Shown: piece after piece, positions 4,680-61,722 of the stretch
Numbering within the stretch: the first letter of the stretch is position 1
Layout of the letters: every line of letters begins with the position of its first letter
Assembly (NCBI GenBank): GCA_033980235.1
Contig: CM067065.1
Span: 22,014,837 to 22,078,836 of the forward strand
DNA length: 64,000 bases
Direction: 5' to 3'
DNA from: Diadema setosum
Lineage: Eukaryota > Echinodermata > Echinoidea > Diadematoida > Diadematidae
Translations under genes and position numbers: made by a program
The notes under the pieces: model-generated
The model's input: only the letters and a program-made list of their open reading frames with translations
What the model was told of the DNA's origin: nothing
Database searches by the model: none

Positions 4680-7600
4680 ATGCGAATAGATTAGATTGAG
4701 AGATTATTTAGAAATTATACACCATTCTAAGTGTTTTGTATCTTTTTTTTGGGGGGGGGGGGAGCAAAAGGGCAAAAAATAATAAAACATTCATATCCAC
4801 ATCATTCGAGGCATCTAGAGGTTTGTTCATTTCGATGGATCTTCAACATGATACAAAAACTTTTCATATTGAAGCATAACATTCTGTATACCAAGAAGTA
4901 AATAGAAACCTTTAAATTATTTGTTTGTATGATCATAAGGACTTGGCTATACGTGGAAAAGCCCCCTTGTCCAAAAAAAGATAGATACGTTTAGAATTAA
5001 ACTTGCCACGCCATAACACCTTCAGAACAATTAAATCGTAACTTTATACCGAAAACAACGTAAAGGAAAAAAAAATTCATGTACAGTTGTAAGATAATAA
5101 CTTTGTTTGACAGGACATGAACAAGATAAGAGAGTAAACTTGTCTTACAGAAAGTCGCCATGCCCTGACTGATATGAAGAATATGCTATAAAAATTCAAA
5201 TTTTACTCACCTGTGCTTGAATTAGTGCTTGGATTTTGCGTTTTGTTTGTTTGTTTGTTTTGTTTGTTTGTTTTTTGTTTTGTTTTTGTTTTTTGTTTTT
5301 TGCACAGGGCCTGTCGGTAGAGTTTTGTTACACCGTTAAGTCCATCTGCCACAAGAGGGAGTACTTTTCGATTTTTTTTTTTTTTTTTTTTTAGCACCGA
5401 CTGCTCCATCCGTTCTGTATGCATGCAATGACCATCGATGATGTTACTGGATACTTGATTTGCTTAGGGATATACACAAATATCCTCCCGAATCCTATTA
5501 TCATAATCATGATTCGTTTGCTAGTGAGCTGGTATATGCGGTGACATCATGCACTGAATCTTGAAGAAGTGCGCATTCGTATCCATTTGTTGAAAATATA
5601 TGGTATCAAACTCAATTTTGACAAGGTTGATCAGACACACCTATTTTGGGTTCTCACATAAAATCAAGACATAAATTGGAAGTATTAGTAGAGCGATTTC
5701 GTGTGGATTTTCCTCGTATAGATATTGCGAGTATCTTTTACGACACATACATATATTAAATCATAACTATATTGAAACGGCATACTGGTGTCTTAATTCC
5801 ATTATGTATACACAGAGTAAAATCAGACACGTTTGTTTGTGTGTTTGTTTGTTAGTTTGTTTGTTTCCGACCTACCAAAAAGATCAAACACCCTGTGAGA
5901 CTGCAGTGCGCCATATCGCGCAATGTTCACACTGCCCATGTATGAAAGACTGAACCATTCATGATCGTTTTTTATCTCTTATTCGCTGTTAAGCCTGCAG
6001 GTAAAAAGCAAATATGAACTTTGCGCACGAACTGATTTATGTGGTAAAGGATTCATTCTGCGGCTATAGCTTATTGTCCTAATATTATATTGTTAGGTTC
6101 CGAATTTCTCATCCATTGTTTGCCTAGTTTGCAAGCACAAAACCTCATCGGTCCTACACAAGTCTGCGCTGAAATAGACGACATGCACCACTAGCACTGC
6201 CTATTCTGTAGTTGTTCTTTATATTTCATGCAGAGACCCTGGGAGAGCTTTGGCACAGTCTCCTTGACAACCGACAAGAGACTGTGCTTGCAAGCTATTG
6301 TTAACCCACTATTGATTATCAAGGGCGTCGTGTCATGCTATCACGCCATGAGAATATAAATGCTAACCATGTAGTTTATATAAAGGGAGGAAAAGAGGAA
6401 ACCACATAACATGTAACGAGTTGGGATAATGAATGCCTTCCCCGTGGATGCTCTTTTCTATTTCTTTATTTTCTTTTTTTTTTTTTTTTTTTGGGGGGGG
6501 GGGTTGATTACATATTGCGACAACTTTGGGTCAATAATACTTCATCGCAGAGTTCTAACTAATATTTTGGATTAAATGGGATTAAAATCAAATACAGCAT
6601 CAGTCACAGTTCTACGACGTATACTTTGGAGATTGAGGAAGTTGTGTGTATGAAATTGTGTATAGTATGCATATCTATACACATATTGCATTCATCATCC
6701 CCTATAAGACAAAAAGTGCCATGATATATGCTAAACCATTACATTTCATAAGTGTCTCATTTCTGTCTTTTTGAAGCTATCCGCCTTGGATATCTCTTGT
6801 ACATTTAGTGCTTGTTCGTTATTGGGCGTTGGACACTCTCTGCTAGTCTGTTCACGTTCCCAGGACGTGAAATAGACTCCAAAGTCTAAAGATTCCAGAG
6901 TCTAAAGAGGGAAACAAAATGTATAATGAGACACATTCAAAGATCATTCATGCTACTCCTCATTGTTCAACGTGAAGGGTCATAGGCCAACCTCCCACCC
7001 CCTCCACCCACACACACACAGGAAACTTTGAAAGAAAGATAACAAAATATGAATGTATTCTTTAGACTATTTTTTTTTTTTGATCAAAGGGCATGTAGAC
7101 ATGGATTACTGCACAACAATAACGACTCGTTAAAAAAAAAAATGTATATGCTGGATCAGTGTAAGCCAATGTACCAATGTAACACTGAGATCACAGTCTG
7201 ATTAACGTGGTTGTGACATTGGACTTTCCAAGCCATTAGGGATCTCTCGATAACGTCCTCGTTGAGGTAAGGCTGCATCAGTAGATTTAACACTTATATC
7301 GTTGACTCATTTGGTTTGTTTCACTCCCTTAGTAATGCTGCATATTACGAAACAACATTAAGTTCGAATGACATACGATTCGACAAGTACAGAAGAGAGA
7401 GAAAAAAGGAAACTAGTTTAGGAGCTGTGACATCATAATGAAATGAACACGTTTAAAACTTTTGTCAAATAGGTTAATATACCACTACTGGATGAATCAT
7501 GAGGAGCATTACATAATGGATGCTTTAGATGAATCAAAGTAGCAGTAATAGTATCGATAATATCGATAATATCAATCATTCAAAGGTGTATCTGATGACT

Positions 7601-9877: not shown

Positions 9878-9938
9878 ATGGAAAAAATGGAATGGTCTAT
9901 ACTCTGGATTGTCCTCTTCATACATGCGTCTTGTTTAG
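9878..9938 (+). CDS. signal-peptide exon of the Ig receptor
   Basis: Start ATG at 9878 (ggcATGG context, good for initiation) reads MEKMEWSILWIVLFIHASCL, a typical signal peptide with a hydrophobic core of about 12 residues. The exon ends TTAG/GTATGA in phase 1. The next exon enters in phase 1, the usual arrangement for a secretory leader exon followed by an Ig exon. A second in-frame Met sits three codons downstream. Confidence 0.75.
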
Positions 9939-10540
9939 GTATGACAAAAATATCAGACTTTTCGATTATAAACAATCAACAAAGAAACAATCAAAGCTGT
10001 TCAGACAATGTAACAAGTCATAGTTAGATAAGACTTGACAGGGTGTCTTTAATATTGTAACAGCATATGGTCAATATAGGGAGCCATATGGTCATATGTG
10101 TCTGTTTAGGCAATATTAACATGGCAACATGTATGAAATATAAATGGCAACAACGGAAATGCAATCAAGATAAATTTTTATGAACGTTAACACAGAATCA
10201 AAAGCCTTGAACAATCAAGGGAAAGTACACTGTAAGAATTAATGAAGGGTATCATCGAAAAACAAGGTTATACAAAGGATGACTGAGGCAGTGATGTTAT
10301 AGGCTTGACCTACTATAGACTTTTTATCATGTTGTCGGGAAATTGCTGCAATAACATTCCCACGTTTTTGTTATCTTTTTTTTTTCTTTTACTTTACTTG
10401 TCATTACGTGAAACGAACAGTATATGAGTTGTATTGTTTGGTTTGTTTTCTTATTTGGTGTTTTTTTCTGCATTTTTGGGAATCGCAGCCTTTTCCATTC
10501 CCTTATTATTTTTCGTTGATGGTTTGTCATTGTCACACAG

Positions 10541-10915
10541 GGTTCGTGGCTTCCGATGTGCATGTACAATCCAACTCGGGTCAAGATGTCGTGCTTCAGT
10601 GTTCACTGCAGAATGCTGACGTGTTTGTGCAGTACTGGCAGTATTCTGTTACAACAGAGTCATTGTCAACATGTCGAAACCAAAGCTTCGTAGAGCTTGT
10701 AACAGAAAATCGACTTGACGGTATTATTCAATACAGTGCTAACTTGACGAATGAGTTCAAAGCAAAACTCATCTTGAAGGCCGATTTCGATGTAATACTT
10801 TTAAACGTCTCTCAGTATGATGCGGGGTGCTACAGGTGTGGCAAATCTTTGTATGACGGCCAGGAGCTCCTCGACAATTCGACCATCTTGAACGTTTTGC
10901 ACAGCTATGATACCG
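10541..10915 (+). CDS. V-type immunoglobulin domain exon
   Basis: This single 375 nt exon (acceptor tgtcacacag at 10540, donor ACCG/GTGACG at 10916) encodes about 125 residues in phase 1-1. Ig hallmarks appear in order: strand-B Cys (VVLQCSL), strand-C Trp (VQYWQY), the strand-F signature DAGCYRC with the Tyr-x-Cys partner, and a strand-G tail. At least four N-glycosylation sequons are visible (NQS, NLT, NVS, NST), so the domain is very likely extracellular. The ligand is unknown. Innate immune recognition or cell adhesion are both possible and I infer neither. An Ig exon flanked by phase-1 introns is the standard shufflable unit. Confidence 0.85.
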
Positions 10916-12032
10916 GTGACGAGAGTTTGCACTTTATTCTAATCACTATATCAACAACACTATTTCCCTGTCTTTAAAACAGGCTGTACGCGCTGTTTCT
11001 CATTGACTGCGATAGCTACTTGATCGAGTATTTAATTCTTCGTATCATTATTAATATTTGCATTTATTTTTATCATTTTTGCTATAACCAGTAATCAATA
11101 TCACAAGAGATGATGCGTCCAAACTTTAAGTTCGTTGTTAGTTTTGCATAAGGAAATGCCATGTCTTTCGATTTGAGTGAAATGTAGTCAAATGATTACG
11201 AATCCCGACAAAAAAAAAAATAAAATGATCAAGAGGGTCACAAAGAGTAGGGAGTTTACTAAGGTCAAGTCGATTCAAAAGAGGAATGCAGTGCAATTTC
11301 CCTTATCCAAACTTTTTCAATTTCTACACAAACTAATATGAATTACAAATTAATTATCCCAACATAACTAACATACATTCACATCAATTTTGCATCTACA
11401 AAACATAAATTCAGACATCCACTACCCCCAAATCACCGCAAGAGCATGGATTGACAACTTTTCATTAATGTAGGGCACGGTACAATGATCGTTCTTTAAT
11501 AAGCACTTCCATGTATTAAACATGGAGTCTCCCATATCCGGTTGAGAGAGGTCGGACTGTACATACTTACGTGTCGTAAACAAAGACGATTTCGCCTTTA
11601 AATCCAGTATAATTACCCAAGTACTTTGATCAATGGATTGTGGAACTTTTTATCAACAAGTGCACCAGAATAGTAGTAATTACATTTGCCTGGCGTCAAA
11701 ATACAGATTTATTTATTTTATGAACACTATACAATACTCAATGGAATTGCCTATTGATGTTAAAAAAACAATAAAACTCATGGTGTCAATTCCATGCGTA
11801 GATATACATTTTGGTTTGAATGGAGTGAAAACTCAAATGAAAAACAAATCATTTACTTTTTCTTAGCTATCAAAAATGTAAAACATTTTCGTAAAAAAAA
11901 CATACTAATAACATTTCAAATAAATGGTAGACACATATGAAAAAGTTAATTGCATATCAATACGATTGTTTGTTGCTGTTTTTTAAATGCATTTTTCAGT
12001 CTCAGTTCATCGTAATTGTATTTTATGAACAG

Positions 12033-12152
12033 CAAAAAACGATACCGTGAAAGAGCCAACTTCAAATGTAGAGTTGACTCCTCTTTACGTACTTCTCGTA
12101 ATCGTCCTCTGGGTTGCGTCGCTTATGGTAGTGATTGTCATTAGGAGAAAAG
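12033..12152 (+). CDS. transmembrane exon of the Ig receptor
   Basis: The acceptor is tatgaacag at 12032 and the donor AAAG/GTAAGT at 12153. The exon reads a short stalk (KNDTVKEPTSNVELTP), then the single helix LYVLLVIVLWVASLMVVIVI of about 20 residues, then a basic stop-transfer RRK. It enters and leaves in phase 1. The helix has no charged residue of the type used to pair with ITAM adaptors. A second short exon between the Ig and TM exons cannot be excluded. Confidence 0.8.
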
Positions 12153-13281
12153 GTAAGTTCCTACATGCGATTGGTAATACTGTGGTAAGAACCAAATATG
12201 CCGAAAATGATATAATAAGTAGACACAGAATCATGCCAATCTGCTGTTTCGAAGAAGCTATACGGCGCTACGATTGTGTGTTGAGATTATTCTAACTTTA
12301 ATGTAATTTCATTTCGCATCTTTAATTGTCTTAAAGGGGAAGGCTAGTAACTGATCAGTGGGAATCAGTGGAAATGCTGGGAGATGATTGTTCCAATCCT
12401 TATGGGATTCATTCGAGAGTTCATTGTATATCTATTGTTGTGTGAAAATGATTTGCTTCAGAACGGTCTCATATACAAGTAATGTGCAGATTAATGCTCC
12501 GTCACTAACCAGGGACGCTAACCTGGAAGCATTAAACTGCACATTACTTGAATATGAGACCATTCTGAAGCAAATCATTTTCACACAACAATAGATATAT
12601 AATGAACTCTTGAATGAATCCCATAAGGATTGGAACAATCATCTCCCAGCATTTCCACTGATTCCCACTGATCAGTTACTAGCCTTCCCCTTTAAGTTAT
12701 GCATAAAAAAAAATCGTATGGAGATTTAGCTTCGTCACACATTCGCTATGAACACACACATACATAAATATATATTCAAAATATGAAATACAGACGATAT
12801 TCTATAATATCTCGGTCTTTTTTTTTCTCTCTCTTTTTGAAGAAATACCTGATTAAAGATTGTACATACTGTCACATCACACGGCATCTTACAATGCCAT
12901 ATTTTGCCAAAGAAGAATTCAGTATGTGTAACATAGTATGAATACTACAGCAACGGAAGTTAGATAATGTTATAATTATGGACGGTGTTTGCCCTCTTTG
13001 CTACCAATTAGACATTTATCTTTGCGGATCTCCAATACGTTCTGTTGTATAAATTCCACGGATACTTATTAGAATACGCAAAAAAGAGCAAACCATATCC
13101 AGTTCTCTTTTCTTATCAACCGGAACTTTTACTTTGCCTTGCCTGAGTTAATGGGATTAATCCGATCCATCAAATGTACAATGGCTTGCAGTTTTACACT
13201 ATTTGACACATTGCATGGATGACTTACATTACTGTAGATCATATATATCTTTTGCACATTACATCTTTATGTTTCGAACAG
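12153..13281 (+). other. intron with a 365 bp foldback MITE
   Basis: The intron runs from donor GTAAGT at 12153 to acceptor cgaacag at 13281. Most of its first half is the near-perfect palindrome listed separately (12331-12695). Confidence 0.55.
12331..12695. mobile_element. foldback MITE (near-perfect palindrome)
   Basis: The two arms of about 170 bp are reverse complements with few mismatches, around a loop of about 28 bp near 12498-12525. The ends read TTAAAGGGGAAGGCTAG and its inverse, so TTAA bounds both sides, compatible with a TTAA target site. Open frames on both strands (for example 12388-12594) are mirror images of each other and are artefacts. A lone copy of one arm lies at 46005-46087. 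Confidence 0.88.
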
Positions 13282-13356
13282 GAATTTCTTGCAAATATGT
13301 TGACTACCAAAGTGATGATGAGGCAGCTTTCCAACTTCTTGATGTCGATAGCAAAG
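13282..13356 (+). CDS. cytoplasmic exon 1 of the Ig receptor
   Basis: This 75 nt exon (acceptor cgaacag, donor AAAG/GTATGC) is in phase 1-1 and reads GISCKYVDYQSDDEAAFQLL followed by DVDSK. It is acidic with two nearby tyrosines (YVDY). I do not recognise an ITIM or ITAM consensus. Splice sites and phase agree with both neighbours, which is the main support, since the exon has no identifiable domain. Confidence 0.6.
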
Positions 13357-14197
13357 GTATGCTTGAAGCAGAATGCAGTAAACCAAGATAAATCGAATGC
13401 AAAACCAGGGTTTGTAGCACACTTGTATCGACAAATGATTTTGTAAAATGTACTTATTCACACCAAAAATAGAGTTTGTTTCCTTTGCTGCATATGTTAT
13501 AATATTGATAGGACATGTATTTGAAAAATATAATTGATCGAGTAGCATAATTATTACCATTCTGTTTGTTAGCAAAGGCTACTTTAGTGGCCGAGTTAAC
13601 ATCAGGCTGGAATTCATTCATATTTTAACATGTATATTTCGCAGTCACTTTTTGATTTATTACATTCAGATGTAAGTGAATGAAATATATCGCAAAATGT
13701 ACATCCACATATCTTCATGCCTTGTTTTATACATGAAATACAAAATATTAAAATCCGTCCACAACCTATATGGAGTATTGAACACATATAGAGGAGTAAC
13801 AAACAAAAGAAGTAATTAAATTAGCCACTGGATATTGTATCCTATTCTTTTGACTTGTCTTAGTTTTAAAAATAAAATAGCTAACGAAGAATAAAACAAT
13901 GTATAAATCCGAATATGCAGTATACAAAAAAATCCTTCCTTGACACACAACCGTTGTTGTAAATTTCTGCTCCAAGAATGTTTTGTGGCATCAAAAGTTA
14001 TGTAAATTATGCCACAGTAAACACTATCATGTATATCTATGCCATCGGCGGGCACTTATTTTCATTCACAACATTTTCATTATGATGCCACTTTCCGAAA
14101 GTCTGTTGTTTGACAATGTCATTTTAAACAAATGTATGTGCCTCTTTAATTGTTGACCTTGACATGTGATTGTTCTCTATTATTTCTTTCGTTACAG

Positions 14198-14220
14198 AAA
14201 AGGTTCGTGTTTCAAGAAAG
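14198..14220 (+). CDS. candidate 23 nt cytoplasmic exon
   Basis: A strong acceptor (tttctttcgttacag) is followed by 23 nt and a good donor AAAG/GTAAAA. It enters in phase 1 and leaves in phase 0, reading EKVRVSRK. Phase 0 is exactly what the SAMHD1-like exon at 14944 requires. The same frame stays open for about 90 codons past the donor, so a longer last exon of the Ig gene, ending without any HD domain, is an alternative. An AATAAA at about 14408 could then serve as its poly(A) signal. Confidence 0.45.
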
Positions 14221-14943
14221 GTAAAAGTAAAAACATTCCGAAATGCAATGCGTAACATCAGTAGAGACAGTAGTGTTCACGGGACCCGTATTCTAAGCTT
14301 GGTATTCTTTGCCCGAACTTTAATCCATTCTTTAATAGGGTACACTGCACATCCATTTCATTGTCTTTCATCAATAATTGTTGAATTTTGGAACGTCCAT
14401 GTTCCAAATAAAGCACTAACTATTTTGTGGGGGGGGGGGTGGGGCGGAAAAGAATAAGACAACAAAAATCACAATCAGTATCAATTGATTGAATTTGAAT
14501 CTTTGTGTGTGTGTGTGTGTGTGTTAGGAGCAATTAACTTGTCATAATGAGCGTATCATCTCCTCTTTAAGAAACCTGCGTACGTTTCAATATCATAGTT
14601 GGTTAGTTTCATGGATTTTCTGAGTATGAAAAAGTCTTATTTGTTAAAGACAAGAACAACATTTTGTTACAAAAATTTTCTGTTCATTCGTGCTACTGAG
14701 CTATTCAGATATCTGCGAATTGTAGGGAAATAATCATTTCTACGTTTACATAGTAACGAAGCGAACAAAACATTCATGTTTTGTGGAACTTACAAAGCAT
14801 ACACAGACAGAAGAATAGGATTTCAGTCAATGTGAAGAAAGTTTCTAGAAAACGATTATTTATTCATCCATTGTTTTCATTTTGTACTTTATCATATGCA
14901 TCGGATACCATCATTTATGTAAGTTATGTTGTCACACGCATAG

Positions 14944-15104
14944 GCAATCAACGACGTGATGTATGGGATGATCGAATTACCATATTTCTGTAAACTTATT
15001 ATCGACACACCGGAGTTTCAGCGGCTACGTTTCATCAAACAACTTGGTCCAGTGTGTTATGTTTATCCATGTGCAGTACACACTCGATTCGACCACTCCA
15101 TTGG
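14944..15104 (+). CDS. SAMHD1-like HD domain, exon A
   Basis: The acceptor is cacgcatag at 14943 and the donor ATTGG/GTAATA at 15105. The exon begins [13 protein letters not shown], contains [17 protein letters not shown] and ends [10 protein letters not shown]. These align closely with human SAMHD1 'INDPIHGHIELHP', 'IIDTPQFQRLRYIKQLG' and 'HNRFEHSLG'. The Arg and the first metal-ligand His (human R164 and H167, from memory) are conserved. SAMHD1 is a dNTP triphosphohydrolase that restricts retroviruses and maintains dNTP pools. An in-frame TAG lies immediately before the exon, so it must be spliced to something upstream. It ends in phase 2. Confidence 0.9.
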
Positions 15105-15418
15105 GTAATAATTTCCATTACCATACATCTTTATCAATAGAAATAATAAATTCCACTCTTTAAAATAAAAATTGCAGAAGTGGTGTGAGTACTATGCTCA
15201 TCCTGTTAAAGGAATGGTATAGTTTTGGTAGATATAGGATTATTTTTGGTTTTTACGTTTGGACAGATAATTACAAAACTTCATCTGGGAAATTGAAGAA
15301 CATATAATTCTAAGAACAGTTCAATTTCTTTTGTGAAAAAAAACGTTTGTTTTTCAAATATATCAGCAATATATTCAAAAGCAAATAAAACAAAACGATC
15401 CTTATAAATTGTCGGTTC

Positions 15419-15471
<53 letters not shown>

Positions 15472-16153
15472 TGACAGTGCATCACAAAACAAACAATAAG
15501 TTGCACTCCTTGATTTTACGTGAGAACTCAAAAAAGGTGAAATGCGTCAGCAAAGTCAATTTTGAGATTCTCATATTGTCTGAAAGAGCTATCCTTCTTC
15601 TTCATTATTCTTTAATTTGGGATCATAACCTGAATGGGAAAGCGTTTCTTTTTCACCAGTTTTTCTACAACCCTTTTTGGTGGGGGAGTAGAACGATCAG
15701 GCATGTCTCAGAGGCCCTTTTTCATTTCTTGAAATCCTTTACACACTCTTTATTCCCAAGTCTAATAACTTGTGAAAGGATAATGTTACCACTTTGAAAG
15801 GTAACAGTAATCAAGGACTAAATGTGTTGATAGAACATGCTCAACTTCAGCTTAATCTGATGATCCCTTCATTGTTGATGCTCCCGTGGTTTATATCATG
15901 TTTTTTTGTCCCATTCATCACACAGTGAGGATGGCTTGGTGAAGATTAAGCACTTGAATAGACCTTGCACTTGAGAGCCTCTTTTCTCAGTTCACACGTT
16001 TCCATTATTTAGATAGGTTAAGGGAGTCCATTAACATTGAGTTATACATCAGTTTAAAGCTAAGAGTCTGCTTTTTCAGAATCTGCCCTGAACTAGAAAT
16101 TCGTATCTGCCGACTTTTTGTTTGTTTTGTAGTGCAGGGTCACATATATAGTG

Positions 16154-16195
<42 letters not shown>

Positions 16196-16200
<5 letters not shown>

Positions 16201-16595
16201 TTAAAACCTAAAATGGCATTAAAACGCTTTATCCTGGCGAGGAAAGCGCATGTTTTTGAAACAAGACACCAAACAGGTTAGTCATCGCATTCTTCATCAG
16301 CGACCAGGATGCGATGTGATGTTAGATTAAAAATCCGTTTCTGAAGCAGAACATACACACAAGGGTATACGTCTGCTCCTGGTCGGACGGATTTCAAAAC
16401 TAACCCGCTTGTGATGGAATGCGTCTAAACTGGTGGTAGTTGTTGCCACAGTGATGGTAACCGCCCAGTTTGTATGTGCGCGTTTGGCGTAGCAACGACG
16501 CATCCATGGACTGGTTCCCTCCACGAAGAGCCAAAGATGAAAGGATGAAATCAGTTTAAAAAACATGACAAACATGAATCCCTGATAGCTTTTCA
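16196..16595. repeat. 400 bp direct repeat, left copy
   Basis: It is almost identical (a few substitutions) to 16887-17285 in the same orientation. The copies are separated by about 290 bp containing roughly 20 bp tandem repeats (gatagtcaatcagacttt-like, about 16759-16860). Both outer sides abut (TA)n. Minus-strand open frames in each copy agree only because the DNA does. The family is not recognised. Confidence 0.85.
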
Positions 16596-16886
16596 ATGGA
16601 CTTACATTGCCAACGTCATGCTCCGATTTACTATCACGAAGATAAACGGTTCAGAGACCCACCTCATCTTGTCTTTCACTGACGCAAACTCACACCTCCG
16701 GCCCCCATAGAGACATCCCAGCCAGTAGTTGTGCCTTGTCCGTGATGGAATACTGTATCAGACTTTCCTGATAGTCAACGGTCTTTCCCGTAGTCAATCA
16801 GACTTTTCCCGATAGTCAATCAGACTTTACCTGATAGTCAACCAGCCTTTCCTGGTAGTCACTGATCAATAACGAACAGAAGTGAA

Positions 16887-17285
16887 TGAGATTAAAACAT
16901 AAAATGGCATTAAAACGCTTTATCCTGGCGAGGAAAGCGCATGTTTTTGAAACAAGACACCAAACAGGTTAGTCATCGCATTCTTCATCAGCGACCAGGA
17001 TGCGATGTGATGTTAGATTAAAAATCCGTTTCTGAAGCAGAACATACACACAAGGGTATACGTCTGCTCCTGGTCGGACGGATTTCAAAACTAACCTGCT
17101 TGTGATGGAATGCGTCTAAACTGGTGGTAGTTGTTGCCACAGTGATGGTAACCGCGCAGTTTGTATGTGCGCGTTTGGCGTAGCAACGACGCATCCATGG
17201 ACTGGTTCCCTCCACGAAGAGCCAAAGATGAAAGGATGAAATCAGTTTAAAAAACATGACAAACATGAATCCCTGATAGCTTTTC
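16887..17285. repeat. 400 bp direct repeat, right copy
   Basis: This is the partner of 16196-16595. Two long direct repeats around a short spacer could be LTR-like ends of a non-autonomous element or a local duplication. I see no TG...CA ends, primer site or polypurine tract. Confidence 0.85.
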
Positions 17286-17303
17286 CCTGATAGCTTTTTC
17301 CCT

Positions 17304-17349
<46 letters not shown>

Positions 17350-17483
17350 TATACATATATACAGTGTATATATATATATATATTGAAACAAGGAAGAAGG
17401 AAGAAAAAAATGACTAGAAACGATTACACCAGAAACAATTACAAAAACAAAAGAAAACCCAGTTTCTTTGCTCAAAGTTTTTG

Positions 17484-17520
<37 letters not shown>

Positions 17521-19114
17521 TGCACTGTTTTTGCTATTTCGGCCATTTCAATGTTTTGTTTTGTTTTTTCTTTATCAAATAAACTTCGATTCTCCTTGGA
17601 ATGGTATGTACTTTCTAATATTTCATAAGAGGTTTCTCAATATCTCGCGAAAGGTTCGGCTATCTTATCCCTTTTATGACTTTATTTTGAAACGTCAGTG
17701 CTTTTGATTTTCAAACTCTTCCTGAGTTATTGTGTTTTTTTAAACATGTCTATTTAGTCTGTTATTCCAAAATGCATTGGTACATTGTATCCTTAAATGC
17801 ATTTCTACACTGATTTACAGGTGTTGTTTGTAAATGTACCCCTGCATCACAAAATCACCAGAAGTCATTAATTTTTAGCTAAGGGCAGATTCTGAAACAG
17901 TATGATCGAAGTTTGATAATAGGGTGCAGTTCAATACAAAAATATAATATTTCATATCATAAAACATGGTGTAATAATAGAAAGAAGATACACACGCAAA
18001 ACCGTGATTACTGAGAAAATAGGCTCGGAACATGAGAATCCATCCAAGTGCTTAGTTTTACCAATCTCTTCTCTGTGCAATAAGTCCCCCCCCCCCCCAC
18101 CCCCGAAAAAAAAAAAATGTAAAAGCCCATTATATCAAAACGACTTTCAGGTTAAGCTTGAACTATGCATACACGATAAAGAACAACAACATTATTATTA
18201 TTGATAACTGATATCAACTTTGAAAGCAGGGGCACTGTCTTCTTTTGAAGTTATTAGACTTGCAATTAAATAGGGTGGTAAGGGTCCTGAAAACTTAAAG
18301 GGCCTCTAAAACATTCCCAATCCGATCACTCAACTCAAGGGCAGATTCTAAAAGAACAATTTGTAAGCTTAAATATGGTGTATATCCCAAATCAAATGTA
18401 CTTTCCTAATCTCTCTAGATATTTGAAAGAAAGCCCATACTCTCTGATAACTGCGAACCGAGAAAGAGACTATAAAGTAAAGGGTCTGTTCATGCACTTT
18501 ACCGTCCTAGCTGTGCGATGAGTGAAACAAAAACAGAATGTAAACCACTGGAGCAGCACCAATGAAGGGATCATCCTATCAAGTTGAAATTAAAAAGCAA
18601 ACTCTATTAACACATTCTGTCCATAATTATGCTGTCTCTTCTAAAGTTATTAGAGTTGCAAGTGAAGACTGTGCAAAAGATGTTGAAGAAATGAAAAGCG
18701 GCATCTTAGATAATCTCAGTACTAAAAAAGAAAAGGTTAAGGAAAAACTGAAAACACACTTTCCAATTTACTCTGTGATCCCAAACTTAGCTATGTTGAA
18801 GAAGAAGAATAGCTCTTTCAGAAAGTTGAAACACCTAAGATTGACCTGGCAGACCCGATTCACCCTTTTTTGAGTCGTCATGTAAATTCAAGGTGTGGAC
18901 TCTTTGTTGGTTTGGTAAAACACGGTCACATATACATATCCTGTACTAATATATCGTAGTTCATTTTAATGGTGTTGTGACCTGATCGAATACGAAATTG
19001 CATGATAAAGACAAAAATGCATAATTGTCAAGTCCTAGGCTCTTGAAGTGCTGCTATACAAGAAAGATATTTAAGTATTTTTGACATGTCTGCGCGTTTC
19101 GTTTTACATCTCAG

Positions 19115-19286
19115 GGTATGTTACATGGCAGGGAACCTGGCCAAAAAGCTCCAATTGCAGAACAGTAACATAACAGATGTTGATGTACGATGCGTGCAAA
19201 TCGCTGGTTTGTGCCACGACCTAGGTCAAGGACCTCTCTCTCATATATTCAAAGAATTCATGGCTGAAAAAGGAAGAGACTGGAAG
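19115..19286 (+). CDS. SAMHD1-like HD domain, exon B with HD motif
   Basis: The acceptor is ttttacatctcag at 19114 and the donor GGAAG/GTACGT at 19287. One nucleotide completes the Gly split with exon A, then [40 protein letters not shown] and LSHIFKEF...DWK. This is the core of the HD domain (human '[25 protein letters not shown]'). The metal-binding HD pair is intact. The His after 'DLG' (human H210) is Gln, and the Asp after 'SHMF' (human D218) is Lys; both are described as catalytically important. The His of 'SHIF' (H215) is kept. Phase 2 in, phase 0 out. Confidence 0.9.
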
Positions 19287-19712
19287 GTACGTTTATAGTA
19301 CAGAAATGACTTGGAAATTCCCTTTCAACTTATTACAGTTATATTATGTCACCAGTATAGGTGATTAGACTGCTATGCCATTTCATGTCTACAACATTAT
19401 TTTGATGGTGTATTGCTGATACTTTACCTTCCTTTTCACCGTCTCTGAACGGTCAGCATTGTAGTCATGGTGAATTGATATAAAAAAAAAAGTACATCAT
19501 GGTCCTACAATCGCTAAATCTTAGAACACTCATGAGTTTTTCCTAAATTAATGACAGAATAAAATTAAATCAGATTTTTTTTTTTTTTTTTTTAGGTCTT
19601 ACCATTGTTTATCTCAGGTAACAAGTTGTAACAGGCACCAGATGTGGCATTACCAAATGAAATTATTCTGTATTTCAACTTCACCCGTGATCTCTTTTAC
19701 CCGTTGCATTAG

Positions 19713-19862
19713 CTGACAGAGCAATCTACGCGCATGTTCAGGTATCTCATCACAAAAAACAACTTAATGGGGAAGCTTTCTGCACCAGAGTTCGGAATCA
19801 CAGAAGAGAAAGTAAATATCATCTGCCATCTAATCTCTGGACAGACAGACGAATGCGAGAGT
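19713..19862 (+). CDS. SAMHD1-like HD domain, exon C
   Basis: The acceptor is gttgcattag at 19712 and the donor GAGAGT/GTAAGT at 19863, giving 50 codons in phase 0-0. It reads LTEQSTRMFRYLITKNNLMG, then 'GITEEKVNIICHLISGQ' and ends DECES. It aligns with human 'THEQGSVMMFEHLINSNGI...LIPEEDICFIKEQIVG'. The catalytic His in human 'WTHEQ' (H233) is replaced, since here Thr precedes Glu-Gln. An expected downstream exon with 'NKRNGIDVDKWDYFARD' (last metal-ligand Asp) was not found in the window. Reading past the donor stops at 19926-19928. A near-duplicate of the donor region follows at about 19892. Confidence 0.8.
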
Positions 19863-22842: not shown

Positions 22843-25164
22843 GGGCAATTCCACGGTATATAGGACACAGGTGCCAAAAATTCAAAATGATATTTGTTTC
22901 AAACACCATACATTTTCAGACAATACTTGAGTTGAAGTTCTAAGAATCATTATGTTTTTCAATGTAAGCGGCCATTTCGATTTTCAAAATGGCTGCCAAA
23001 ATATGCCTATAAATACTCAATGGTAAAAAGAGAGGATTGTCACATAACTTACTCTCTGTATTATATCCACTTTACTAGTACTCTAAACAGCAATCTTGTA
23101 TATCATGCAGTTACCAGAGACGTCTTTTACCACACGATAGAAAAAAAATCTGGTCGCTTTAAGGAATTTGATAAAAACTTTTAATTAGTTTGACAATGAT
23201 GGATGTAACGTCAGTTACCAAAAACAAGGAATTTTTAACTTTATTCATCAAAGAAAGTGAGCTGTATGATGTAACTGGGGATTTCTAATGTATGCCTATT
23301 TGCCTTTCTTTTAATACTGGAAATAAGGATACTTGGCATACTGGAGAGTCAGTCAAAATGAACACTTCAAAATGTGTAACGTCAGTTACCGAAACGTCAT
23401 ACATGAGTATGTAGTAACGTCAGTTACCATGACCAGTAATTATAACTGAGGCAATTTTTTTGACTTTTAAAGGCCATTTCAATACATATGGGAAGTCAAA
23501 GGTTATCAACAAAGAGCAGCAATCCCTTTGATGGGGAATGATGTCATCACCATGGTATGTCCATGGATATATTCTTTTCATTTTATTAAACATTTATTTA
23601 TTTATTGATCATAATTATCATTTCTTATGGGGGGCTTGAGGTTTTGATTTTCGATTCAGCACAAGTTTAAGGTTAAATCATCTGGAAGTTTAGGTTTACC
23701 ACGTGCAATATATATGCACTCAAATTATACAGTACATTCACAGTCCTACATGTATGGGATGATAAAGCTACCAAAGTTTGTAGGCCTAATCAATGACGTG
23801 GTTGCATGGTAACCACCTTTTCTATACAAAAGCTTGTGTACAGCTGTATACCAACAGTTTTATAATCTTAACTTATGATTGCTTTTGCTAGCATTTGTCT
23901 TCTTTTCTGGAAGCTTACTGAAGTTTCTACCTCAAGGCAAATGCACAAACAGATATATTTCTTCGCTTGCACTTATGTGTGGTTTAGTTAATGTGACACA
24001 TCTTGTATTATGGTACATACATAAGGCATGTACTGTCATTACTGTTTGAAACTTAACACTAATGTTGCTTAATGTTTAACATTGATGTTGCTCAAAGTGA
24101 GAGGTGATTCTAGGGTTAAAAAAAATTGTTCATATTTGTTGATTACTTTATTTATTTATTTCATTCATGCAAGGACATTTTGTAATGGTACATGATAATT
24201 TAAATTATGAACAGGAAGATTTGTTCATATAATTGATCTTTAATGGATTTTTTTTTTCGTTGCAAAGTCCTATTTCTTGGTATCTGGGATGTATTTGCAA
24301 GCCTTGATACATCAGTGAAAAGGAAGAGAAAAACAGTTATAATACTTTATTACATTACATTATTTATGCCCAACTGTGCTATAACATGGGGGTGGGGGGT
24401 TGCCCCCTAAGGGCCCCACCCCATTTGTGTCTTTGGATTTTGTTTTAATTTGTTGCTAAGTAATTGCCTGGGATTGTTACTGGTATACTGCAGCAATATA
24501 ATAACCTGTTAAATAAATTTGTTCTCTGTAAACCCCATAGCAAAAGTATGTGTAACGTGAGTTACTGATATGTTTACCTTTAAGTTTTCATAGAACACAA
24601 AGAAAATGGACTTATGATTCATGTCATTTGTGTATTCATAATTGATGAACCAAGGTATGATGCCATATCAAACAAATCATTCTGAAAGGTCAGAATTATA
24701 AAATATCACAAAACTATTCCCAATCATGATTTTGCATGTGTAAACCCTATGGCAAATGTAAGCGTAACGTCAGTTACCGTCATGCCTTCACTGAAATTGG
24801 CATGGTGCTAAAAGGAATATATCTAAAGTGCACATTATTTTGCACACCTGTTCCTAAGAACCTAGGTGTATTGCCATATTAAACACATAAAGGCTAGAAG
24901 TCAGGGACATGAGATATTTCCATTTAAATCTACACCATAATTTCCCATGTCCTTTTTCCGTAACGTCAGTTACTGACACATTTTCACTTGCTATGTGATA
25001 AGAAATGCAGTTTGAGAGAAAAACTTTCCACCTATTTCTTCATTCTAATGAACTCATTCATCAATGCCAATTGCAAGCCCCAGGTGCTTTCATTTACAAA
25101 ACTACAACTTAAAAAAATTTCATGAAAATCCTTACGCGTAACGTCAGTTACCGTGGAATTGCCC
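22843..25164. mobile_element. 2.3 kb DNA element with repeated GTAACGTCAGTTAC motif
   Basis: Terminal inverted repeats GGGCAATTCCACGGTA (22843-22858) and TACCGTGGAATTGCCC (25149-25164), flanked by TTTA on both sides (22839-22842 and 25165-25168), a possible 4 bp target duplication. Seven copies of the near-palindrome GTAACGTCAGTTACC start at 23205, 23376, 23414, 24552 (one mismatch or more), 24764, 24960 and 25138, the last overlapping the right terminal repeat. No transposase frame is present, so it is non-autonomous. Confidence 0.75.
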
Positions 25165-44912: not shown

Positions 44913-45218
44913 TTGCCAATATGATTTCGTGATCTTATAGGCCTACATGTAAAATAGAAACATAAGCAGATTAACACATTACAAAATTAGCAAAAAGATA
45001 CTTTTACATCTTAAGTGACTTCAATATACTGTATCCTTGAATTGACAGTATAGAGTACAGTATGATTCTTTCCTTTTTAAAAAAGTGGATATGAGATTCA
45101 TAAGACAAACCTGCTTTTACCTGAAAAATAAAATGGACTACATGAGTACATACTTGCCTATGTAGACTTGAATATACAACTTAAGTTTATTGCCAGCCCT
45201 CAAGAGAAAGTGAGCTTC

Positions 45219-45326
45219 TTAACCCATTCCTCCCGCAATTCTCCAAGCACCTTCAATGCACCCAAATTATCAATATAATTTTTTTTTTGCAGGTTGGCAG
45301 AGGAGGACAGGTTGGTAATGGGTTAA
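45219..45326. mobile_element. very short TTAA-bounded MITE candidate
   Basis: TTAACCCATTCCTCCC at the left and GGTAATGGGTTAA at the right, only 108 bp. Possibly related to the 'ttaacccattcctcccac' motif in the array monomers. Confidence 0.35.
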
Positions 45327-45489
45327 TAATGTTTGCTATTTTCAGATCAACCACAAATTGAATATAAAGTTTACCAGTAGGGCTGTTTGCAGTTATACCA
45401 GACAACCCGTCTTTCCACTTTCTGATCAATAGTCCTCTTCAAAACTAAAGAGAACTTGTTCAGATTCATGAAATTCTTCCTTCGAGATG

Positions 45490-45625
45490 TTTTATCATTA
45501 TCATTGTTATTATTGTCATTACTGTTATTATTATTATTATTATTATCATTATTATTATTATTGTTATTGTTAGTGTTGTTATTATTATTATTATTATTAG
45601 CCGTAGTATTAGTATTATTAGTATC
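45490..45625. repeat. (TTA)n microsatellite
   Basis: Degenerate ATT/ATC/GTT trinucleotide repeat. The poly-Leu open frame is an artefact. Confidence 0.95.
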
Positions 45626-46004
45626 TTATTCAGCTTTCAATCACAAATATCAATATTACATTTTTCGAAATCAGAACATACACTGGAGTGGTAAGGGTGC
45701 ACCACGTTGGGCAGCCCGGATCTAAAAAGAGTCAACTAAATGACTTGGGCCCTCACACCATCCTCCCCAACCCACCTGGTGCACCCAAAACAGTCAGTTT
45801 ACAATATAAAATGATACAAATTTCATTATGAGGTATCAATAAAAAACAAAACTGTTTCTTTGTGTCAAATAAAGATATGTGTAACTACCAATCTTTCTTA
45901 CTCCATTCAAATATCAGAGGTAATTTTCTACATGAGAAGACTTGCAATATACTTTACATATTGTATTGATATGCCAGCTCTTAAATGGCTAATGACATCA
46001 AAAC

Positions 46005-46087
46005 CTGAATCCCACAAGAATTGGAACAATCATCCCCCAGCATTCCCACTGATTCCCACTGATCAGTTACAAGCCATCCACTTTAAA
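46005..46087. mobile_element. single arm of the 12.3 kb foldback MITE
   Basis: About 83 bp from 'gaatcccacaagaattggaa' to 'ccactttaa' matches the right arm of the palindrome at 12331-12695 with few changes. The other arm is absent. The array begins within a few bases of its end. Confidence 0.75.
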
Positions 46088-46599
46088 CTAGCTCACATGA
46101 ATACTTCTGGAGTCAATAACACATGCAGACATTTCTGGTGTTATTTTGACATTAGAGCTGAATTTAATTCCTTATTTCCCTGAATTTGCATGTTACGACT
46201 AGAGGATGGTCTCTCTTTCATGAGATGACATGGACAAAAGATTAATGACATTTACCTGCCTTCACCTAGTTAGGAGGGCTAGCAGTACATACACCTGCCT
46301 GTGAGGACTTGAGTATCCAAATACACCCATTAACCCATTCCTCCCACTATATTTGGAGAGCCTACAATTCTACAATGAGAAGATTCTTTTAGCACATGGA
46401 CAGAGAACTCACAGGTTGCTGATCCACCTACCAGGTGCAAAAGCTGTCAAGCACTACATGCATCCCCTTTCTACTGTTAACTATTATGGCGAATCAAACG
46501 ATGAAAACTTTAATCGGATGCAAGGTATCAATAAAGTGTGTCCTGATGGGATCACAAACCCGTTTGTTCCACACAAGAGAAGCACCTAAGGGGTCAGAA

Positions 46600-46601
46600 A
46601 T

Positions 46602-46652
<51 letters not shown>

Positions 46653-46653
46653 A
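46600..46653. repeat. (CA)n tract at the fixed microsatellite site of A monomers
   Basis: It lies between 'gtcagaaatgc' and 'aagttactgaac'. The same site holds other simple repeats in other units (48330-48361 poly-A, 56180-56220 CA, 57656-57692 C then A, 61683-61722 CA). Confidence 0.9.
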
Positions 46654-48327
46654 GTTACTGAACAGACCTGTGATAGCTGTCATGTACCATTTTTGAACAC
46701 CCTACAAAAGAAACAATAATTTATTAAAATTATGAAATACATAAACTTGGTGTCACAACTTAGTAATATTTACACCTGCTTACGAGGACTAAAGGTATAT
46801 ACACCTGCCTATGATGACTTGGCTATATGAACTTGATCAGCATGGTGTCATGAAACAAGTTGACATGCTAAAATGTCCTATCACATATGGTACACTGCAT
46901 TTCAAGCCCTATCACACAAACCATGTTTTTCCAGTTTAGTAGGGTATTGCAAAGAGCTGATACTACCCTACATGAATACTTATTAAAGTTAATAGTCCAT
47001 AGGGAAGTTTCTCGAGTTATTTTGACATTACAGCTGTATTTAATTCCTTATTTCGCTAAATTTGCAGGTTATGACTACAGGACGGTTTCTATTTGCTCAG
47101 ACCACATGGACAAAGGATGTTTGATATTTACCTGCCTTTACCTTGTAAGGAGGGCTAGCAATAGATACACCTGCCTAGGAGGACTTGGCCAACTTTAATA
47201 TTGACACACCTGAAGAGAAAATGATATTGTTTGTTTACCCATTCCTTCTGCTAGTATTTGGGAGAGTCTACTAAGCTACAAAAGAAGATTCTTTTAGAGC
47301 GTTGACAGAGAATCAAGTTGGTGATCCAGCTGATGTAAAGCAGTCAAGGATTACATGTATTCCATTTTCACAAGTAAAAGTGACATTGAACAATGCAAAC
47401 TTTTGATCAGATGTGAGGTATCAATAGAGTGTGTGCTGATGGTTTCACAAGCTCTTGTTCACACTAGAGAGGCACCTTAATGAGGTCAGCAAAGGTGCAA
47501 CTCTACTGAGCAGAGCCTTGAAAGCTGTCATGTACCTTGTCATAATGCCCTACAAAAGAAACAATGATTATAGCAATATCATGAAATTTGGGAGCTTGGT
47601 GTCACAAACTTAGTAATATTTCCACATGCTTACGTGGATTAAAGGCATATATACCTGCCTATGATGACTTGGCTATATTACATTGATCAGCATACATTTT
47701 ATTTGACAAATCGGTCTGTAAACCTGTACTATCACAGATTGTAAAGCCTTTACTAAACAAATCATATTTTCATGGCTTTTGTAGGACGTGGCAAGTGTAA
47801 AAGAGCTGATAATTGATCTACCTGACTTGAATTCTTCTCAAGTCAATATCACGTATGGACATTTTTGGTGTCATTTTGACATTAGAGCTGAATTTTATTC
47901 CTTATTTCCATAGATTTGCAGGTTATGACTAGAGGATGGTTTCTCTTTCCTCAGACCATGTTGACAAAGGACTCATGACATTTACCTACCTTCACCTAGG
48001 AGGGCTAGCAGTATTTACACCTGCCTATGAGGACTTGAGTATCCAAATACACCCCTTACCACATTCCTCCCACTAGTTTTGGAGAGCCTACAATACTACA
48101 ATGTATGAGAACATTCTATTAGCACATGGACAGAGAACTCACAGGTTGCTGATCCACCTGTGCAAAAGCTGTCAAGCACCACATGCATCCCCTTTCTACT
48201 GTTAACTATTACCGCGAATCAAACAATGCAAACTTTAATCGGGTGCAAGGTATCAATAAAGTGTGTCCTGATGGGCTCACAAACCCGTTTGTTCCACACA
48301 AAGAGAAGCACCTAAGGGGTCACCAAT

Positions 48328-48365
<38 letters not shown>

Positions 48366-49612
48366 ACTGAACAAATCTGTAGTAGCTGTCACATACCATG
48401 TTTGAACGCCCTATAAAAGAAACAATAATCTATTGAAATCATGAAATACATAGATTTCGTGTCACAACTTAGTAATATCTTCACCAGCTTACGAGGACTA
48501 AAGCCATATACACCTGCCTATGATGACTCGGCTATATGAACTTGATCAGCATGGTGTAATGTCATGAAACAACGTGGCAAGCTAAAATGTCCACATATCA
48601 CATATGGTACACTATATTTCAAGTCCTATCACACAAACCATGTTTTCCCGGTTTTGTAGGGCATTGCAATCGTCAAAGAGCTGATAACTTAACTACCCTA
48701 CATGAATACTTATTGAAGTTAATAGCCCATAGGGACATTTCTAGAGTTATTTTGACATTACAGCTGAATTTAATTCCTTATTTCCCTAAATTTGCAGGTT
48801 ATGACTACAGGATGTTTCTATTTGCTCAGACGACATGGACAAAAGATGCTTGACATTTACCTGTCTTCACCTTGTTAGGAGGGCCAGCAGTATGTACACC
48901 TGTAAACTTATGGACACACCTGAATAGAAAATGATATGCTTTACCCATTCCTACTGCTAGTATTTTGGGAGAGTCTACAAAGCTACAAAATAAGATTCTC
49001 TTAGAGTGTTGACAGGGAATTCACAAGTTGGTGATCCAGCTGATGTAAAGCAGTCAAGGATTACGTGTATTCCATTTTCTCAAGTAAAAGTGTCATCGGA
49101 CAATGCAAACTTTTGATCAGATGTGAGGTATCAATAGAGTGTGTGCTGATGGTTTCACAAGCTCTTGTTCACACAAGAGAGGCACCTCATTGAGGTCAGG
49201 AAAGATGCAAATCTACTGAGCAGAGCCTTGAAAGCTGTCACGTACCTTGTCATAATGCCCTAGAAAAGAAACAATGATTATAGTACTATCATGAAATTTC
49301 TCAGCTTGGTGTCACAACTTAGTAATATTTCCACATGCTTACGTGGACTAAGGGCGTATATACCTGACTATGATGACTTGGCTATATTGAATTGAACAGC
49401 AAAAGATATTGACAAATTGGTCTGCAAACCTGTACTATCACAGATTGTAATGTCATTACTAAACAAATCATATTTTCATGGCTTTGAAGGGCGTTGCAAT
49501 TGTCAAAGAGCTGATAGTTAATCTACCTCACATGAATACTTCTCAAGTTAATATCACGTATGGACATTTTTTGTGTCATTTTGACATATGAGCTGAATTT
49601 TATTCCTTAATT

Positions 49613-50565
49613 GTCCCCGCCGAACGAGTTCGAGCAGGCTCCGTACGTGTGTGTGTCCGTGTGTCCGTCCGTCCGTCCGTCCGTCCGTCCGTCCGTCCGT
49701 GTGTCCGTCCGTCCGTCCGTGTGTCCGTGTGTGCGTCCGTGTGTGATCAAAATCTTCAATTTGCTACTTCTCTGTCATTAATGAGCCAATTTTGATTCTG
49801 TGTGCTTTATATGATAGCACTACATGGGAGCTTTGAAACTTCTACACAGAATTTCAGTCGTGACCTTTGACCTTGACCTTTGACCTATATTGTACATTTT
49901 GCTACAAAATGCTACTCCTTCGCCATTTCTAACCCGATTTCGATTCCGTTTGCTTTATGTGATGGCACTAGGTGAGGGCTTCATAACTTCTGCACAGAAT
50001 TTTGACCTTTGACTTCTTTGACCTTTGACCTTGATTTTTTGACCTATATTGTACATTTTGCTACAAAATGCTACTCCTTCGCCATTTCTAACCCGATTTC
50101 GATTCCGTTTGCTTTATGTGATGGCACTAGGTGAGGGCTTCAAAACTTCTACACAGAATTTTGACCTTTGACTTCTTTGACCTTTGACCTTGATTTTTGA
50201 CCTATATTGTACATTTTGCTACGAAATGCTACTCCTTCACCATTTTTAACCCGATTTCAATTCCGTTTGCTTTATATGATGGCACTAGTTGAGGGCTTCA
50301 AAACTTCTACACAGAATTTTGACCTTTGACTTCTTTGACCTTTGACCTTGATTTTTGACCTATATTGTGCATTTTGCTACAGAATGCTACTCCTTCGCCA
50401 TTTCTAACCCGATTTCGATTCCGTTTGCTTTATGTGATAGCACTAGGTGAGGGCTTCAAAACTTCTACACAGAATTTTGACCTTTGTCTTCTTTGACCTT
50501 TGACCTATATTGCACATTTTGTTACAAAATGCTACTTCCGGCGGGGACATATGTTACGCACCGCG
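49613..50565 (+). mobile_element. 953 bp element with TAATT target duplication and DR1-like repeats
   Basis: It begins GTCCCCGCCGAACGAG and has an inverted CGGCGGGGAC near its right end (50539-50548). TAATT flanks both sides (49608-49612 and 50566-50570) and occurs once at the same place in other array units (ccttaatttc), which proves insertion. The interior has (GTCC)n (about 49658-49735) and about four tandem units of 155-165 bp, each with TGACCTTTGACCT. Confidence 0.85.
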
Positions 50566-60525: not shown

Positions 60526-61682
60526 CCATCTTTTCCATCAAGACTTGACCATCCAAAAAACTTGACACACCTGAATAGAAAATGATATTGCTTACCCATT
60601 CCTTCTGCTAGTATTTGGGAGAGTCTACAAAGCTACAAAATCTTGATTCTTTTACAGCGTTGACAGGGAAGTCACAAGTTGGTGAACCAGCTAATGTAAA
60701 GCAGTCAAGGATTACATGTATTCCATTTTCACAGGTAAAAGTGACATTAAACAATGCAAACTTTTGATCAGATGTGAGGTATCAACAGAGTGTGTGCAGA
60801 TGGTTTCACAAGCTCTTGTTCACACAAGAGAGGCACCTTAATGAGGTCAGCAAAGGTGCAACTCTACTGAGCAGAGCCTTGAAAACTGTCACGTACCTTG
60901 TCATAATGCCCTACAAAAGAAACTATGATTTTAGTAATATCATGAAATTTGTGAGCTTGGTGTCACAACTTAGTAATATTTCCACATGCGTACGTGGACT
61001 AAGGGCATATATACCTCCCTATGAGGACTTCGGTATATTGAAATGATCAGCATATATCTTATTTGACAAATTGGTCTGCAAACCTGTACTATCACAGATT
61101 GTAAAGTCGTTACTAAACAAATAATATTTTCATGGCTTTGAAGGGCGTGGCAATTGTCAAAGAGCTGATAACTAATCTACCTCACATGAATACTTCTCAA
61201 GTCAATATCACGTAAGGACATTTTCGGTGTCATTTTGACATTAGAGCTGAATTTTATTCCTTATTTTCATAAATTTGCAGGTTATGACTAGAGAATGGAT
61301 CTCTTTCCTCAGACCACGTGGACAAAAGACTCATCACATTTACCTGCCTTCACCTAGGTAGGAGGGCTAGCAGTATATACACCTGCCTATGAGGACTTGA
61401 GTATCCAAATACACCCGTTAACACATTCCTCCCACTAGGTTTGTAGAGCCTACATTACTGCAATGAGAAGATTCTTTTAGCACATGGACAGAGAACAATA
61501 AGGTTGCTGATCCACCTGCACAAAAGCTGTCAAGCACTACATGCATCCCCTTTCTACTTTTAACTATTATGGCGAATCAAACGATGCAAACTTTAATCGA
61601 GTGCAAGGTATCAATAAAGTGTGTCCTGATGGGATCACAAACCCGTTTGTTCCACACAAGAGAAACACCTAAGGGGTAAGAA

Positions 61683-61722
<40 letters not shown>

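Follow-up and report, generated by a model that had tools for sequence, protein, structure and literature searches.

The restriction factor SAMHD1 is known in the form of a soluble enzyme, and a stretch of the Diadema setosum genome raises the question of whether a relative of its HD domain has been built into a cell-surface receptor. The stretch, 64,000 nucleotides long and called the window below (C7:22014837-22078836 of the genome that we searched; coordinates without a contig are positions in the window), had been given a sequence-only reading that proposed a single gene for a signal peptide, a V-type immunoglobulin (Ig) domain, a transmembrane (TM) helix, a cytoplasmic linker and a SAMHD1-like HD domain. 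Judging from the genome sequence, we consider it probable that the window does hold a member of a Diadema gene family in whose copies a V-set/TM receptor gene is spliced onto a SAMHD1 paralogue that lacks the SAM domain. The proposed fusion has gained support from paralogous loci and from two faulty NCBI models, whereas the nucleotide-hydrolase function proposed along with it has not. The domains are known ones, the V-set-TM-HD architecture is new to us, and no V-set/TM/SAMHD1-like fusion was found described in a literature search that mostly did not reach subscription journals.

All eight plus-strand exons of the proposed chain have AG/GT boundaries and matching phases at every junction, and the frame is open without a stop for 376 codons from the ATG at 9887, to which the in-frame ATG at 9878 adds three to give the 379 reported earlier. 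Exon 1 (9878 or 9887 to 9938) carries the start codon and a sequence that by eye resembles a signal peptide, and it ends in phase 1. The following three exons all keep phase 1-1 and encode the V-set domain (exon 2, 10541-10915), a stalk with the TM helix (exon 3, 12033-12152; helix recognized by eye and by homology) and an acidic cytoplasmic linker (exon 4, 13282-13356). Exon 5 (14198-14220) is a candidate 23-nt micro-exon with the peptide (E)KVRVSRK that converts phase 1 to phase 0, the phase in which exon 6 (14944-15104) is entered and the SAMHD1-like HD domain begins; this domain goes on through exon 7 (19115-19286), with the HD signature CHDLGQG, and exon 8 (19713-19862). As to the claimed order of domains, Pfam recognizes the V-set domain of exon 2 (E 6.9e-6; 26.7 bits, barely over the cut-off of 26) and the HD domain of the chain (E 2.5e-8), while the signal peptide and the TM helix are clear by eye in the translation. 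The AlphaFold model of exon 2 was too poor to be used (predicted local distance difference test score, pLDDT, of 40), and the closest solved structures to the HD part are those of SAMHD1 (E 1.9e-34). Nearest to the chain are proteins of Diadema sea urchins, and exon 6 is 100% identical to D. antillarum P0001 over 49 amino acids (tblastn). The chain has no SAM match in Pfam, as had been said, yet the absence of this domain is usual among sea-urchin relatives (P0008-P0014).

Whether the Ig and HD halves belong to one transcript hinges on exon 5. Splice sites were scored with a generic matrix that was not trained on this species, and by these scores exon 5 is the top one of 53 phase-1-to-0 candidates in its intron. 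If it is skipped and 13356 is joined directly to 14944, exon 6 is read out of frame and meets a stop near 14993 (from the list of open reading frames). However, when 29 control stretches of 1.5 kb were taken from other parts of the window, 8 contained an equally good phase-changing exon, so that the earlier estimate of about one in three for chance agreement of the phases is fair for the window alone, and within the window alone the link from Ig to HD is no better than chance. What argues for the fusion comes from other copies of the gene.

The genome (885,718,524 bases in 96 contigs) was searched with two queries, the HD protein of the window and P0121 (a relative described below), which gave at least 32 and at least 67 matches, respectively. 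Among the matches listed, HD exon 6 with a V-set exon upstream occurs at eight loci: the window itself (locus 1; C7:22.03, plus strand), locus 2 (C7:22.18, minus), locus 3 (C7:34.42, plus), locus 4 (C7:34.36, minus), locus 5 (C7:34.39, minus; a further, degenerate exon 6 lies at 34.396), locus 6 (C27:515k, plus), locus 7 (C27:599k, minus, partial) and locus 8 (C59:55k, plus). Thus, all eight loci outside C8 (8/8 among these matches) have a same-strand V-set around 3.5-11 kb upstream of HD exon 6; near the six exon 6 copies on C8 there is none (0/6), and no V-set match on C8 is among the matches listed. Exon 2 of the window shares 48-77% identity with the V-set exons of the seven other loci. 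Across loci 1-7, with exon 6 of P0004 standing in for that of locus 7, the distances between V-set exons correlate with those between exons 6 (r 0.64; 61 of 5040 permutations as high), and both halves were therefore probably copied together. V-set genes without an HD part also exist, since V-set exons make up 27 of the 67 matches listed for P0121 and only eight HD loci have one upstream. Around 0.2 kb past the V-set exon of locus 5 lies the degenerate, stop-bearing copy of HD exon 6 (C7:34396315-34396485). We considered whether C7:34396.3-34397.2 might be a processed copy of a fused transcript and ruled this out; it consists of a V-set exon followed by the degenerate second exon 6 with its stop.

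The interval from the TM exon to exon 6 was fully read in four loci (1, 3, 4 and 5), and in three of these the best-scoring phase-1-to-0 exon is exactly 23 nt long and ends in S-T/R-K: EKVRVSRK in the window, GGSRASTK in locus 3 and GNVPTSTK in locus 5. When these three intervals were shuffled with dinucleotide composition preserved (400 shuffles each), the best exon had 23 nt in 22, 32 and 23 shuffles and had both 23 nt and a terminal Lys in 2, 5 and 6, respectively. The TM, exon 4, micro-exon and exon 6 of locus 3 form a single stop-free frame. In none of the three loci does an in-frame ATG lie between the micro-exon and the preceding stop, so that the micro-exon is not a first exon there. 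Its terminal Lys aligns with Lys116 of SAMHD1, and AAG ahead of GT is also an ordinary donor context. The best 28-nt match of the locus 3 micro-exon in locus 5 is the micro-exon found there (17/28). Similarity of sequence is by itself a weak argument for the micro-exon; the case is made by its length, its phase, the place where it lies and the way its peptide ends.

Annotated relatives of the chain were taken from NCBI models, which are automatic annotation. P0003 of D. antillarum (423 amino acids) runs, by our own parsing of its exons, from a V-set domain over TM helix and linker to ...GYIDTSTK and HD exon 6. P0121, named D. setosum and 688 amino acids long, has V-set and HD domains by Pfam with a TM helix between them. 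Only the HD part of its predicted structure was used, because residues 1-155 (the Ig part) have a pLDDT below 50; the HD part is mostly above 90 and matches the SAMHD1 core (Foldseek E 3.0e-35, rank 2). In P0004, a segment that looks Ig-like by eye (with no Ig domain by Pfam) is followed by ...IDTSTK and a full HD domain. When the V-set/TM part of the window chain alone (residues 1-213) was the query, 209 candidates contained none with E<=1, which we attribute to word sampling because P0003 and P0121 turned up with other queries. At their best places in the genome searched, P0004 and P0121 match at only around 79-98% per exon although both, like P0002, carry the name D. setosum in NCBI; the assemblies may be of different lineages or species, or these genes may evolve very fast. 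The NCBI start of P0006, MLSYLQ, sits in the intron just ahead of exon 6, and the real first exon was probably left out of this model.

Several observations weigh against the fusion, beginning with the control stretches described above and with the weak acceptor and donor scores of exon 6. The fusion is proposed from genome sequence and gene models, two of which, P0001 and P0002, have no Ig part in their annotation. The N-terminus of P0003 is odd and the model ends directly after exon 6, while P0121 contains the linker exon of locus 3 (68% identical) in a frame that differs from the phase-1 chain of locus 3 and is thus at least partly a forced chain; for these reasons, we do not take either model as proof. 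The eight loci are related by duplication and hence are not eight independent observations. Splice quality of the micro-exon by itself is unremarkable given the control stretches, and scores as high as the observed ones were reached in 7, 49 and 0 of the 400 shuffles for loci 1, 3 and 5, respectively. Locus 4, though fully read, is without a well-scoring 23-nt exon, its best phase-1-to-0 exon being a weak 56-nt candidate; around 600 nt before its exon 6 it has instead MATDEDGRRRHIPDGPVPTK, with its own ATG and then a donor, apparently a separate first coding exon. Where the intron was scanned only in the part next to exon 6, no good 23-nt exon was found, neither in loci 2 and 6 (the last 1.5 kb or so) nor in locus 8 (the last 1.2 kb); the scan did not include locus 7. 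At the DNA level, the micro-exons of different loci resemble one another only weakly, with 11-12 identical positions in 23 nt. The 17/28 that the locus 3 micro-exon attains in locus 5 is equalled or exceeded (17 or 18) by 10 of 200 shuffles, and the best match of the locus 3 micro-exon in locus 4 (18/28) sits elsewhere. Finally, the exon 4 linker of the window is unalignable with the linkers of P0121 and P0003 or (by blastn) with loci 3-5.

The last point on this side is a conserved competing first exon, present both in the window and on C27. An independent first exon for 14944 was the rival that the sequence-only reading itself had foreseen, and the plus-strand stretch 7213..7266 (E0; VTLDFPSH*GSLDNVLVE) is indeed homologous to the beginning (MTFDFPSPMESVDNVLVK) of P0002, a soluble SAMHD1-like protein. 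The match is faint in tblastn (E 0.47), but its score of 51 compares with a maximum of 31 in 2000 shuffled queries, and it runs exactly to a GTAAGG donor at 7267, one of 105 GTRAG donors, whose phase 0 fits exon 6. A second copy of E0 with 79% DNA identity and an intact inner ATG lies at C27:502723-502820 and is followed by a V-set exon and HD exons. As a coding start the exon of the window is impaired: its first codon is GTG, no ATG is present, and an in-frame TAG replaces the inner Met. It is conceivable, then, that two separate genes lie here, a soluble SAMHD1-like gene headed by E0 and, inside its first intron, a V-set/TM gene, and that the in-frame chain reflects chance and the way gene models are chained. 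The conservation and the strong phase-0 donor of E0 fit this arrangement, as do P0002, which splices its E0 straight to HD exon 6, the apparent first exon of locus 4 and the many V-set exons in the genome that have no HD exon nearby. P0001 fits as well, being annotated from an internal Met of exon 6, which a non-coding E0 would explain. With two separate genes, however, the micro-exon would be left without a purpose, because E0 ends in phase 0 and so cannot use it, and yet the best exon has 23 nt in loci 1, 3 and 5 and similar ...IDTSTK ends recur in P0003 and P0004. Together with the fused NCBI models, the same-strand order in 8/8 loci, the joint duplication of V-set and HD halves and the missing start codon and TAG of the window E0, this makes two separate genes an unlikely account of the locus.

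E0 does not exclude a second, Ig-headed transcript. There probably is, or once was, a soluble HD form, and the Ig-headed one would be another product of the same locus. One explicit version of this has alternative promoters, with transcription from E0 giving a soluble HD protein (N-terminally shortened in the window copy), transcription from the Ig promoter giving the membrane form, and skipping of the 23-nt exon giving a short-tailed receptor without HD. It is in keeping with the order E0, V-set, HD in the window and at C27:503-515k, with the stop near 14993 that follows when the micro-exon is skipped (13356 to 14944) and with the label "isoform X2" of P0001, which implies that another isoform is annotated. 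This scheme contains our preferred explanation, so that the probabilities of the two overlap, and we think that it has close to an even chance of being correct.

For the fused gene to make a full HD domain, further exons are needed, as the domain is incomplete in the window, where a tblastn search for HD exons 9 onward found nothing better than E 0.77, on the opposite strand. Plus-strand matches to P0001, P0002, P0004 or P0121 resume around 90 kb downstream. Counted on from the window start, the stretches 109760-109981, 110650-110745 and 112291-112353 match P0001 at 82, 94 and 90%, and 115226-115423, 116699-116815 and 117040-117186 match P0001, P0002, P0004 or P0121; all of these are protein matches, with splice sites outside the comparison. 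Because HD stretches resume only at 109760, the intron after exon 8 would be about 90 kb long. This gap is spanned by P0001, which corresponds to the window HD gene in D. antillarum and covers exons 6-8 and the first three downstream stretches, and no further plus-strand exon 6 occurs in between among the matches listed. The window copy might be a decaying pseudogene of a fused gene, given the stop in E0, the loss of catalytic residues (see below) and the large, repeat-rich intron of 90 kb. Exons 1-8 are open with usable splice sites, though, and the matches to P0001 are free of frameshifts within exons, with 100, 76 and 94% identity for exons 6-8 and 82, 94 and 90% for the next three (the lower values include match ends that reach beyond the exon), and we judge decay to be quite improbable.

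The introns of the chain contain various repeats. Within the 90-kb intron, 45000-62500 is taken up by an extended array of diverged repeats in which the same peptide-like frames come back many times, and the tandem arrays 49861-50506 (158 bp) and 59188-60523 (447 bp) also belong to this intron. In the intron past the TM exon, 12388-12700 is an inverted repeat that resembles a small hairpin transposon, with opposite-strand open reading frames (12388-12594 and 12432-12638) for nearly the same peptide, and in the intron after exon 6 a stretch of around 0.4 kb is, by eye, duplicated in direct order (16197-16597 and 16888-17288). At 23750-23800, the exon-6-like fragment MYGMIKLPKFVGLINDV (tblastn E 0.12) is perhaps a decayed partial duplicate. 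Its origin from exon 6 is unproven; in a relaxed DNA alignment its score of 23 equalled the best of 300 shuffles (mean 13.9).

The proposal that the receptor would carry a nucleotide hydrolase was not borne out by the residues of the HD part, numbered here by alignment to human SAMHD1. One study (PMC7045340) reports that H210A and H233A disrupt catalysis in human SAMHD1, that Lys116 contacts GTP in the allosteric site and that the residues of this site include K116, D137, Q142, R145, Arg451 and Lys455. In the window copy, the metal ligands H167 (exon 6), H206 and D207 (exon 7) and D311 (in an exon 90 kb downstream) are retained, and the equivalents of H210 (exon 7), H233 (exon 8), K312 and Y315 are Gln, Leu, Thr and Cys. 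The four GTP-site residues that we compared are all present: K116 comes from the micro-exon, and D137, Q142 and R145 are in the DTPEFQRLR motif of exon 6. Loss of catalytic residues is not peculiar to the window, as at least one of them is lost in six of the seven Ig-linked HD loci compared (loci 1-7). The positions of H210, H233, K312 and Y315 are Q, P, T and C in locus 6 (P0002), H206 has become Q in locus 3, common to P0121, and R in locus 4 (only exon 7 compared), D311 is N in locus 2, and locus 5 has R for H206 and F for D311, both common to P0006. Locus 7, read via P0004, retains all catalytic residues. Outside the Ig-linked group, the catalytic residues compared are retained in all four Diadema proteins (P0008, P0009, P0010 and P0123), which are presumably C8-type genes. 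A tree built from the HD region groups the Ig-linked copies together with weak support (88/60), at a fork that the program draws open, and P0125 stands separate on a very long branch. From these residues, the HD part is likeliest to be a pseudoenzyme or an altered enzyme, for which nucleotide binding and assembly may be preserved, and inside the cell it would probably serve as a sensor or scaffold and not as a working enzyme.

The chain resembles several known systems in part. Its HD domain is homologous to SAMHD1 by sequence, the fold predicted for the relative P0121 is that of the SAMHD1 core, and metal-ligand and GTP-site residues are retained in the window copy; unlike SAMHD1, the chain has no SAM domain, is probably fused to V-set/TM and has H210, H233, K312 and Y315 replaced. 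The SAM-less SAMHD1 paralogues of sea urchins (P0008-P0014) are similar in having HD alone in the precomputed Pfam column, with a few tens of residues before it at most. They differ in that their models have no Ig part and in that the Diadema members named above (P0008, P0009 and P0010), like P0123, keep their catalytic residues. On the receptor side, the V-set exon of the window is 47% identical to the second domain of the Diadema V-set/TM receptor P0005 (V-set by Pfam, E 3.5e-16), but that receptor carries a pair of V-set domains, and its short tail lacks HD. In vertebrates, V-set receptors that signal through their tails combine a signal peptide, a single V-set domain, a TM helix and a cytoplasmic part, as the window chain appears to do; the tail of the latter differs in being SAMHD1-like, and no immunoreceptor tyrosine-based inhibitory or activation motif (ITIM or ITAM) was seen in it by eye. 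SAMHD1-like proteins with a Pfam Death domain (PF00531), which is also of immune type, occur in amphioxus (Branchiostoma; P0122, P0124 and P0126).

For the fused gene that we favor, the Ig promoter would yield a transcript of exons 1-2-3-4-5-6-7-8 and, across the 90 kb, 9 onwards, encoding a protein with signal peptide, V-set domain, TM helix, short linker and SAMHD1 core. The micro-exon would act as the adapter that links phase-1 Ig exons to phase-0 HD exons, and it is perhaps the tail of the old first coding exon of the HD gene that was given a new acceptor, an exon that locus 4 seems to keep (MATDEDGRRRHIPDGPVPTK). E0 would formerly have started the soluble form and now be non-coding in the window copy, which would leave the Ig start or the internal Met of exon 6 as the remaining starts. 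At the cell surface, the V-set domain would bind some extracellular ligand, while the SAMHD1-like core inside would cleave dNTPs poorly and may keep allosteric GTP/dNTP binding and assembly. Nucleotide level or ligand clustering would then control receptor assembly, and this step from ligand to core is the least certain one.

SAMHD1 domains in which catalytic residues are gone and those of the GTP site remain form a natural set that would be useful to separate catalytic from non-catalytic roles of this protein. More tentatively, these genes may be lineage-specific immune-type receptors with a cytoplasmic SAMHD1-derived pseudoenzyme, a possibility that we raise while holding it doubtful as a whole: a V-set domain would be tied to a nucleotide-binding, self-assembling but non-hydrolysing core so that GTP/dNTP state and an outside ligand are read jointly, and the family would have arisen when the end of the first coding exon of the HD gene gained a new splice acceptor and so became a 23-nt adapter that captured the neighbouring receptor gene, with fused and unfused stages coexisting in the genome. 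If the fusion is true, the tie between a SAMHD1 fold and an Ig domain at the cell surface would amount to a new architecture of receptors, and the family would illustrate how chimeric immune-type genes can be assembled through exon-phase adapters.

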